Of a DNA stretch of 64,000 nt, positions 36,751 to 39,703 are shown one piece after another. Position 1 is the stretch's first letter. Each line of letters opens with the position of its first letter. The notes under the pieces are model-generated. The model saw only the letters and a list, made by a program, of their open reading frames with translations, was not told the DNA's origin and did not search any database. The DNA is from Pseudothermotoga hypogea DSM 11164 = NBRC 106472 (GTDB lineage Bacteria > Thermotogota > Thermotogae > Thermotogales > DSM-5069): positions 372,001 through 436,000 of the forward strand of contig NZ_CP007141.1 of the NCBI RefSeq assembly GCF_000816145.1, given 5' to 3'. The position numbers were made by a program, and so were the translations under genes.

Positions 36751-37732
36751 CATCAAAGAGTCCACCTCTCACCCTGCTCTCGTATCCAAGATGACGGTAC
36801 GCGAGATCACTGGCCACCCTGCCGCGCGATGTTCTCACGAGCAAACCTGTGCGAAGCAGGTATGGCTCGTAAACTTCTTTGAGTGTGTCAACCTCGACGT
36901 TCAGCGTCGCCGCGAGTGCTTCCAAACCCACGGGGCCTCCCTCGTAGATTTCGATGATCGTTCGTAATATCTTTCGATCCATCTCGTCCAATCCCAGCGC
37001 ATCTATCTCCAGTATATCCATGGTTTTAAGAACGATCGATTGCGTTATCGTCTCTTCGCCACGTACGGTTGCCACGTCCCTCACGCGCTTCAAGAGTCTG
37101 AGCGCGATGCGAGGAGTACCCCTCGATCGCTGAGCAATCAGCTCGGCTGCTTTCTGCTCTATAAACATGTTCATGATCTCACAAGCTCGTTTGATTATCA
37201 GCGTCAGCTCTTTCACAGTGTAAAAATCAAGCTCGAATATCATTCCAAACCTGTTTCTGAGAGGTGAGCTGAGCAAGCCGCTCCTCGTTGTTGCACCGAT
37301 CAACGTGAAGGGTTTCAACCTTATCCTGACGGACCTCGCCGTGGGGCCCTTGCCGATCATCACATCTACTTGGAAGTCTTCCAGCGCTGAATAGAGAACC
37401 TCTTCGGCAGTTTTGTTCATCCTGTGGATTTCATCGATGAAGAGCACATCGCCCTCCTCGAGGCTCGAAAGCATCGCAGCGATGTCGCCACCGCGTTCGA
37501 TGACAGGTCCGCTCGTGACGTATATGTTCTTCCTGAGCTCTTTGGCTATCACGTGTGCGAGCGTTGTTTTCCCCAAACCGGGAGGTCCAGCGAGCAAGAT
37601 GTGGTCGAGAGGTTCTGCACGAAGCTTCGCTGCTTCCAGAGCAATTCTCAGTCTCCTCTTCACTTCTTCCTGTCCCACGTACTCGTCCAAGTTGTTCGGC
37701 CTGAAGTTCAGTATCGATTCAACTTCCTTCAT
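36683..37732 (-). CDS. ruvB: Holliday junction branch migration ATPase RuvB
   Basis: 349 aa from ATG 37732 (MKEVESILNFRPNNLDEYVG), which shares its A with the asnS stop (TGATG). Walker A is AGPPGLGKTTLAHV, Walker B LFIDEIHRM, sensor 1 IGATTRSGLL, and the arginine finger region RNRFG follows. The C-terminal winged helix ends SRGRVASDLAYRHLGY. The last 30 residues are a polar extension overlapping yggS. RuvB drives branch migration with RuvA, which is not in the window. Confidence 0.95.
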   Translation of the reverse strand: MKEVESILNFRPNNLDEYVGQEEVKRRLRIALEAAKLRAEPLDHILLAGPPGLGKTTLAHVIAKELRKNIYVTSGPVIERGGDIAAMLSSLEEGDVLFIDEIHRMNKTAEEVLYSALEDFQVDVMIGKGPTARSVRIRLKPFTLIGATTRSGLLSSPLRNRFGMIFELDFYTVKELTLIIKRACEIMNMFIEQKAAELIAQRSRGTPRIALRLLKRVRDVATVRGEETITQSIVLKTMDILEIDALGLDEMDRKILRTIIEIYEGGPVGLEALAATLNVEVDTLKEVYEPYLLRTGLLVRTSRGRVASDLAYRHLGYESRVRGGLFDGYVAEHSEDQREDNSGGSQGSS

Positions 37733-39030
37733 CACGGATACACCCTGTAGAGTGTCCTTGCGAACGGTATGGCCTCTCTGATGTGCTCCAATCCACAGAT
37801 CCATGCAACGGTGCGTTCTATACCAAGTCCGAAGCCACTGTGAGGCACACTTCCCCACTTTCTCAGATCCAGATACCACTGGTATTTGTCGATAGGCAGG
37901 TTGAACTCTTTGAGTCTTTCAACCAACAAGTCGTAGTCGTGAATCCTCTGAGAACCTCCTATGATCTCTCCGTAACCTTCCGGTGCGAGCAGATCCGCAC
38001 ACAGAACGACTTCTGGCCTGGAAGGATCCGGTTGCATGTAGAACGCTTTCGCCTTTCGCGGATAGTGAGTTACGAAGACAGGCTTTTCGAACTGTGAAGC
38101 GATCAGGGTCTCTTCGTCTCCGCCGAAGTCGTCACCCCATTGTATGTCCACGCCTTTCGACTGCAAGAACTTTATTGCCTCATCGTAGCTTATGCGTTCG
38201 AATGGGACGGTCACTTTCTCGAGCTTCGAGATGTCTCTACCGAGCGCCAAAAGATGATCAGAGGCGTTCTCGAGCACGTATTTGACTATGTGAGAGACCA
38301 GCTCCTCTTGGAGCCTCAGGTTGTCTTCGTGCTCATAGTACGCTACTTCGGCCTCGTGCATCCAGAACTCTATCAAATGTCTTCTGGTTTTGGACTTCTC
38401 TGCTCTGAACGTTGGACCGAGGTTGTACACCTTACCGAAGGCCAGGCAGGCAGCCTCCAAATAGAGTTGACCCGTTTGCGTTAGATAGACCTTTCCGTAA
38501 TCGAAATAATCGAGTTCGAAGAGATTACCGGCCGTTTCACCGATCGAACCTGTGAAGATTGGGGTATCGATCAGGACGAAGTTCCTATCTTTGTAGAACT
38601 TTCTTATAGCCCATATGATCGCATCCCTGACGCGAAGGATGTGGAACTGCCTTCTTGAACGCAACCACAAATGTCTACAGCTCATGAGGAAATCTATCCC
38701 ATGGTCTTTCTTGGATATGGGGTACGGTTCTTTGGGGATTTGAACAGCTGCGATGTCCGTTGCCAGTACCTCGACACCGTAAGGCGATCTCTTGTCCTCC
38801 TTAACCAAACCTCTCACGATCACGCTCGATTCGATGCGGAGTTTCCCCGCGACCTCGAACACATCTTCGGGAACCGTGGAGCGTTCGACCACCACCTGCA
38901 CGAAGCCTGTACCATCTCTGAACTGAAGGAAGTGTATCTTCCCACTCGAGCGGAGATTCCAGACCCATCCACGCAGTTCAACTTCCTCGTTGATGTGATT
39001 CTTCAGATCCTCCACGTAGACCCACTTCAT
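37732..39030 (-). CDS. asnS: asparaginyl-tRNA synthetase
   Basis: 432 aa class II synthetase. An N-terminal OB-fold (VELRGWVWNLRSSGKIHFLQFRDG) precedes the catalytic domain with motif 2 (GPTFRAEKSKTRRHLIEFWM) and motif 3 (GFGLGIERTVAWICGL). The GETAGNLFELDYF segment and lack of an aspartate-type insertion favour AsnRS over AspRS. It charges tRNA-Asn in the cytoplasm. It is the first gene of a twelve-gene leftward operon, and its leader contains a CCGAAC-AG-GTTCGG hairpin just before the ribosome site. Confidence 0.93.
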   Translation of the reverse strand: MKWVYVEDLKNHINEEVELRGWVWNLRSSGKIHFLQFRDGTGFVQVVVERSTVPEDVFEVAGKLRIESSVIVRGLVKEDKRSPYGVEVLATDIAAVQIPKEPYPISKKDHGIDFLMSCRHLWLRSRRQFHILRVRDAIIWAIRKFYKDRNFVLIDTPIFTGSIGETAGNLFELDYFDYGKVYLTQTGQLYLEAACLAFGKVYNLGPTFRAEKSKTRRHLIEFWMHEAEVAYYEHEDNLRLQEELVSHIVKYVLENASDHLLALGRDISKLEKVTVPFERISYDEAIKFLQSKGVDIQWGDDFGGDEETLIASQFEKPVFVTHYPRKAKAFYMQPDPSRPEVVLCADLLAPEGYGEIIGGSQRIHDYDLLVERLKEFNLPIDKYQWYLDLRKWGSVPHSGFGLGIERTVAWICGLEHIREAIPFARTLYRVYP

Positions 39031-39122
39031 CTTTCAGACCTCCCCGAACCTGTTCGGTTGCACACGACATTCAAAAACCGATGCACGGTGCGCCAAGCTT
39101 CGCGACACGTTGTTCAACTAAA

Positions 39123-39131
39123 ATGATACCA
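39123..39131 (-). promoter_or_regulatory. probable extended -10 promoter of the asnS operon
   Basis: On the minus strand TGGTATCAT, an extended -10 without a clear -35. Transcription would start near 39116, giving a leader of about 85 nt. No tRNA-like T-box features are visible in the leader. Confidence 0.4.
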
Positions 39132-39267
39132 TTCGTTCGTGAACTGGCCCCTCCTTTCAAATCGGCAACATCAAACGCAGACAGAGAATTTACTTTGCTC
39201 CAAGCATCATTCAAATTCACAGACCCCGCGCACTCTGTACTTCACCTTTTCGCTTTTATCTCGTTAC

Positions 39268-39541
39268 GTCTCCTCAACAGCCATCCCCTAAGAAAGTGCA
39301 CCGCTCAGACGGTGAAGCCCGTACATTGGTCTCATCCTAAGTAATGGCTCGGATGAATTAGGATACAGCTCACGCTCCCGAGTGTGAACACCTGCGAAGG
39401 TGGTGTCTTCAACGATCTGAACGAAAGCACAATTGAGCTATTGAGACCCACCACGAAACAGGGAATCGAAAAACGCTGAGACTATCTATGGACAGCCGAA
39501 TACGAGTAAGGTCCTGCACCGGAAACGGGGCTTTTTGTTTT
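39268..39541 (+). ncRNA. putative structured non-coding RNA of unknown class
   Basis: The roughly 600 bp between asnS and tRNA-Cys has no plausible protein gene but is dense in complementary segments on the plus strand: CACCG/CGGTG (39300-39314), GGTCTCA (39328-39334) with TGAGACC (39442-39448), ATCCTAA with TTAGGAT around 39335-39365, a CACCT-GCGA-AGGTG tetraloop hairpin near 39390-39404, and CGATCTG with CAG-GGA-ATCG crossing another helix as a possible pseudoknot. It ends in a terminator at 39516-39540. The 5' end is a guess from a weak TTATCT -10 box. I do not recognise RNase P, tmRNA or SRP motifs; 6S RNA is not excluded. The preceding 39031-39267 holds only the asnS leader and promoter as far as I can see. 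Confidence 0.45.
39516..39540 (+). terminator. terminator of the putative RNA
   Basis: GCACCG-GAAA-CGGGGC hairpin with one A-G mismatch and a GAAA tetraloop, followed directly by TTTTTGTTTTT. No protein gene precedes it on this strand within 10 kb, which is the main reason to suspect a transcribed RNA here. Confidence 0.6.
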
Positions 39542-39589
39542 TCGTGGTGAGAAAATCTTAAAGGTTTGGACCAGCTTTGTTTTCAACGC

Positions 39590-39617
39590 TTGACCTGTCC
39601 CGACGATGTGTTATAAT
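39590..39617 (+). promoter_or_regulatory. tRNA-Cys promoter
   Basis: TTGACC at 39590-39595, 16-bp spacer, TATAAT at 39612-39617. It is the best sigma-A promoter in the window, placed 10 bp before the mature tRNA 5' end. Confidence 0.8.
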
Positions 39618-39627
39618 GTGGCCGGAA

Positions 39628-39703
39628 GGCGACGTAGCCAAGCGGTTAAGGCGGGGGTCTGCAAAATCCCTATGCGTGGGTTCGAATCCCACCGTCGCCT
39701 CCA
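39628..39703 (+). tRNA. tRNA-Cys (GCA)
   Basis: 76 nt cloverleaf: acceptor arms GGCGACG/CGTCGCC, D-arm with AGCGGTTAAG, anticodon stem GGGGT/ATCCC with loop CTGCAAA (anticodon GCA), and T-arm GTGGGTTCGAATCCCAC. The discriminator is T, and CCA is encoded. U73 with a GCA anticodon is normal for tRNA-Cys. Confidence 0.96.

Follow-up and report, generated by a model that had tools for sequence, protein, structure and literature searches.

The 64,000 bp stretch of Pseudothermotoga hypogea DNA analyzed here (the window) contains, between asnS and a tRNA-Cys gene, a segment that is best read as a promoter-deleted, decaying copy of a Pseudothermotoga small RNA family whose intact copies are probably run by a split sigma factor; the probability of this reading as a whole is put at about 60%. 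It is the dispersed family, with up to about 20 copies per genome, and not the window copy itself, that constitutes the actual discovery. Limited searches of the open-access literature returned no description of it, and this multicopy RNA family appears to be previously undescribed.

asnS and the tRNA-Cys gene (Table 1) are separated by 597 bp without a convincing open reading frame, as the first-pass annotation of this DNA had stated in reporting a protein-free gap of about 600 bp. The "many complementary segments" that it saw there are at chance level, since positions 39268-39541 fold with -73.0 kcal/mol and shuffled sequences with -71.4 ± 5.0 kcal/mol (z = -0.33); both strands were tried, and the idea of a notable single-sequence fold was dropped because shuffled sequences fold equally well. 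Its clear intrinsic terminator is a hairpin with a T-run, but an A.G mismatch interrupts its stem (39516-39521/39526-39531), which is worth -6.7 kcal/mol, and the consensus scan missed the hairpin; terminators of intact family members lie mostly between -10 and -20 kcal/mol, and that of the window copy is the weakest. A consensus scan of the plus strand of the gap found no sigma-70-like promoter other than the tRNA gene's own. Rfam 15 yielded only chance-level matches (E up to 10) to the window copy and none to eight intact loci, and the absence of a match at gathering and permissive thresholds rules out 6S RNA, RNase P, tmRNA, SRP RNA and riboswitches. To the last four the first-pass annotation had found no match by eye; 6S, which had been named as the first family to try, was not matched, nor was any other Rfam family.

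Table 1. Features of the asnS to tRNA-Cys segment (window coordinates) and the split operon loci elsewhere in the same genome
Feature	Position	Strand	Basis or remark
asnS	37732-39030	-	
Protein-free gap, asnS to tRNA-Cys	39031-39627	.	gained segment; only 93-169 bp in five relatives
GTTAC, relic upstream promoter element	39263-39267	+	sequence; promoter pattern; alignment to G003 ortholog
Deletion point (uncertain by a few bases)	39285-39286	+	26 bp (CTCGTATATCTATATATGGGAGCGCT) of G003 ortholog absent
RNA gene remnant (leader minus start, body, terminator)	39286-39541	+	ortholog E = 6e-22; R1 match
Hairpin P2 CACCGCTCAGACGGTG	39299-39314	+	scan inverted repeat; P2 of subfamily consensus fold
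Conserved core motif GTACATTGGTCTCATCCTAA (family form GUACAUUGGnnUnGGUCUAA)	39321-39340	+	
P1 3' strand ACGCTCCC, partner gone	39372-39379	+	P1 known from family; sequence
Weakened intrinsic terminator GCACCG-GAAA-CGGGGC-TTTTT, A.G mismatch	39516-39536	+	unlisted by consensus scan
tRNA-Cys promoter TTGACC-16-TATAAT, separate from the RNA	39590-39617	+	promoter scan
tRNA-Cys	39628-39703	+	
Split operon locus, G000:C1	205,239-205,505	-	loci L083, L084, L105, L173 (both operon loci)
Split operon locus, G000:C1	1,049,916-1,050,633	+	

A DNA search of 61 genomes returned a single ortholog of the segment, which also adjoins asnS in a close relative, G003 (68% identity, E = 6e-22), and weak second matches at other sites of G003 and of the window's own genome (G000). 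These second matches consist of shared blocks followed by terminators, which makes the window segment part of a dispersed family. A pattern built from the shared blocks found further copies, and two models of their common 5' leader were used, R1 (80 nt, sequence only) and the broader R2, many of whose matched loci were outside its building set. In the window copy R1 positions 26-80 match 39286-39340 (E = 1.7e-8) and R2 matches over its positions 26-82 (E = 8.7e-4), and the segment very probably belongs to the RNA family.

It is not a full member, however. The sequence is CCATC-CTCGTATATCTATATATGGGAGCGCT-CCTTAAGAAAG in the G003 ortholog and CCATC-CCCTAAGAAAG in the window, and the 26 bp missing from the window comprise the -10 element, the start site and the 5' strand of helix P1. 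The upstream element GTTAC survives, with no CGTATA-like sequence 20 nt after it. The shared leader with its core motif is thus present and the shared promoter and P1 5' strand are absent, so that the copy is a relic; the deletion together with the weakened terminator makes it a likely pseudogene, which would be silent. Among the ten ortholog pairs compared between G000 and G003, that of the window copy has 83% identity over aligned bases and 12 gaps, and the other nine pairs show 80-92% identity with 1-16 gaps; a raised substitution rate is not clearly seen, and since the identity lies within the range of intact pairs, this rate alone is no proof of decay. The proposal of an RNA gene at this place therefore holds insofar as a non-coding RNA gene with an intrinsic terminator is the origin of the segment, but its promoter and RNA start have been lost, and an intact abundant RNA here is unsupported. 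Nor is the suggested asnS-RNA-tRNA-Cys order conserved in the Thermotogales: the RNA lies there only in the window genome and G003, and the gap is short in five relatives (G001, G002, G004, G005 and G008), so this synteny is not ancestral. Most simply, the line to G000 and G003 acquired the RNA at this position.

R1 finds 16 matches in G000 and the same number in G003. With R2 the window genome has 17 (14 full leaders, the window remnant and two protein-operon promoters), G003 has 16 and G008 21, followed by G001 (10), G002 and G010 (9 each), G009 (6), G007 (3) and G004 (1); full leaders number 14 in G000, and leader-bearing loci about 15 in G003 and about 21 in G008. By the R2 scan, members are confined to two Pseudothermotoga-type genera, and none of 30 genomes from 12 further genera has the leader. 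A scan of public genomes, which possibly did not cover the window's genome, found matches only in Pseudothermotoga sp. RSWP20 plus two isolated ones that are likely due to chance.

The family promoter in this genus is GTTWC-N20-CGTATA-N7-ATGGGAGCGCTC. Intact copies in G000, G003, G001 and G002 have the order GTTWC-N20-CGTATA-N6/7-ATGGGAGCGCTCC, P2, GUACAUUGGnnUnGGUCUAA, often AGGAU and AGCGCUCCC, a body that varies and, at the end, a GC-rich terminator; the leader is 80 nt long, ends with GUACAUUGGnnUnGGUCUAA and is closed by P1. Searched with up to 3 mismatches, the promoter pattern occurs 12, 13, 3 and 3 times in these four genomes, respectively, and its reversed control not at all. In g4 the -35-like GTTAC is missing, and the G008 leader differs in sequence (CGTATACTATATAATGGAAGGCGCC...CGTATATTGGCATAGGTCTAATC) with palindromes and core kept. 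In the f3 genera the cognate promoter variant has 0-2 matches per genome, with no sign of an RNA expansion; a phage origin was discarded, as viral contigs yielded no match to the promoter pattern. Bodies are not conserved among paralogs. A terminator at the 3' end is usual among intact members and not universal; in some cases no terminator is evident and the leader heads for a gene or lies antisense to it. At L048 (G008:C1:1,014,8xx), for example, a g4 leader lies upstream of an ORF that looks serpin-like by eye with no evident terminator between them, so some leaders may be 5' untranslated regions. At L081 (G000:C1:194,5xx) an RNA body directly precedes an ORF resembling by eye an IS200-type TnpA, which may have inserted into the RNA gene. 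It is likely that the family is a genuinely transcribed non-coding RNA.

Helix P1 is formed by AGCGCUCCC, which is complementary to the RNA start. A near-exact GCGCTCCC (at least 7 of 8 positions) lies downstream in 34 of 40 copies; a control search upstream gave 1. With the 3' strand picked by its likeness to a fixed consensus and not by pairing, 255 of 290 P1 cells are paired, a value equalled by 1 of 5000 shuffles. Altered 5' strands are accompanied by altered 3' strands: g0_194 has GGAGAGCGC/GCGCTCTCC, and the GGGGAGC strands of g3_C146, g3_C234 and g1_924 go with GCTCCCC. RNAalifold applied to eight subfamily members recovered P1, P2 and the terminator without double changes, as the subfamily is too similar to show them. 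The GGGAGCGCTCC palindrome was also considered as a DNA operator alone; this was rejected because the downstream copy frequently retains just the half that pairs with the 5' strand, as in L109, and varies along with that strand (L081, L040 and L093). A DNA role at the promoter is nonetheless possible, since a palindrome also occurs at the protein-operon starts, and L111 and L115 have theirs with no evident P1 partner.

In G000 the same promoter also precedes DUF1659-DUF2922 and, at another locus, an 81-amino-acid weakly holin-like gene followed by a gene for a 118-amino-acid RsoA-like protein that has sigma region 2 only (PF04542, E = 5.5e-6, above the curated cut-off). The RsoA-like protein is present in 38 of 45 Thermotogales genomes. 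All four genes form one operon in G004, G005, G008, G016 and G019, and DUF1659 is close to the RsoA-like gene in further Thermotogales genomes; in G000 the operon is divided between two loci and each has the promoter, which argues circumstantially for a functional motif. In most Thermotogales examined a -10-like element, CGTATA or GTAGATATA, lies upstream of the operon, and close to the inferred start there is a GC-rich palindrome that varies between genera. Upstream of DUF1659 this palindrome is perfect in many genera and lies just past the -10, with GGGAGCGCTCCC, GGACAGCGCTGTC, GCCTGCGCAGGC and GGGCTGCGCAGCCC as sequences of individual genera. A region-4 search of the genome gave no obvious stand-alone sigma-4 partner, and DUF2922 is not mentioned in the open-access literature searched. 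At L167 (G019, g5) the operon continues, downstream of the RsoA-like gene, into a gene resembling by eye a FlgJ/glucosaminidase-type lysozyme; lysozyme-like and holin-like genes together suggest a lysis function.

Because the same promoter stands before the operons of the sigma-region-2-only protein and of DUF1659-DUF2922, a sigma factor of the split SigO-RsoA type is proposed for the RNAs, and their regulon is probably tied to such an alternative factor. Intact copies would probably be transcribed by this dedicated sigma factor, with the RNA beginning at or near the GC palindrome. The leader should then fold, closed by P1 and including hairpin P2 and the core GUACAUUGGnnUnGGUCUAA, and be followed by a copy-specific body that would usually end at the intrinsic terminator. 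The most likely mechanism is that the RNAs would act jointly as trans-acting regulators when the sigma factor is active: the leader common to all would be the module for binding or targeting, and each copy would have its own partner through its variable body; a trans-regulatory role, suggested by analogy with known families, is put forward tentatively and is somewhat less than an even bet. More speculative, and rather unlikely as a whole, is a lineage-specific scheme in which the promoter-plus-leader scaffold spreads in the genome and gains new 3' bodies, creating many new RNAs that depend on the split sigma factor and are co-expressed with the holin-like protein, so that the regulon would evolve rapidly and be tied to a lysis, stress or DNA-exchange program.

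Mobile or repeat sequence candidates are a recognized category (PMC11109978), and the family could be a selfish dispersed repeat, MITE- or REP-like, with an outward promoter and 3' bodies that are simply whatever adjoins the insertion. Like such elements it has many dispersed, partly homogenized copies per genome; a near-identical block of about 190 bp with flanks that diverge beyond it is found in about ten G008 copies, and the asnS-tRNA-Cys site is empty in five relatives, although these empty sites are too diverged to show a target-site duplication. However, unlike MITEs and REPs, it uses a promoter that belongs to a cellular operon conserved throughout the order, most copies end in their own terminators, the P1 strands change together and no transposase link was seen. 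By eye the G008 block has no inverted ends, and at least ten orthologous sites are kept between G000 and G003. A selfish repeat is the chief rival reading, though an unlikely explanation of the family.

It is improbable that the window copy still functions as an RNA, made from another promoter and stabilized by the remaining hairpins: its body and core motif are still recognizable, but there is no promoter-like site upstream on the plus strand, asnS points away, the 5' strand of P1 is lost and the terminator is weak. It is least probable of all that the transcripts serve as mRNAs and encode very small peptides. ORFs of 14-18 codons were seen by eye in a few bodies, such as MEQRLNDARNERTKSR (L090) and MDRQLTDAHNNRTKSR (L074), but they are confined to close paralogs and missing in others such as L077, they have no clear Shine-Dalgarno sequence, and the conservation sits in the leader.

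Paralogous small RNAs under one regulator include the Vibrio Qrr RNAs (sigma-54/LuxO) and the streptococcal csRNAs (CiaR). The sigma-28-dependent non-coding RNA paralogs CjNC1 and CjNC4 of Campylobacter (PMC4626219) are a further case. Like all of these, the Pseudothermotoga family consists of several intergenic RNAs that are related, share a regulator-specific promoter and have intrinsic terminators, the promoter and terminators here being predicted from sequence. It differs from them in its 14-21 copies of about 220-400 nt, its conserved 5' leader with divergent bodies, its sharing of the promoter with the gene of a sigma-region-2-only protein, and its lack of a sequence match to a known family. 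As in SigO-RsoA, sigma region 2 is on a small separate protein whose operon carries the promoter of the regulon; unlike in that system, no separate sigma-4 protein was recognized, the regulon includes many RNAs, and the genes are those of DUF1659, DUF2922 and the holin-like protein. This is by copy number a large RNA family, in a deep-branching thermophile phylum with few known non-coding RNAs (13 putative ones in Thermotoga maritima; PMC3636130), and a promoter consensus and a regulon are hereby proposed for an RsoA-like sigma subunit.

Among the G008 copies L204-L213, promoters and bodies are combined differently. L208 and L212 have a body in common and differ in their upstream types, as do L206 and L213, a pattern that points to the leader as a route of recombination or gene conversion.
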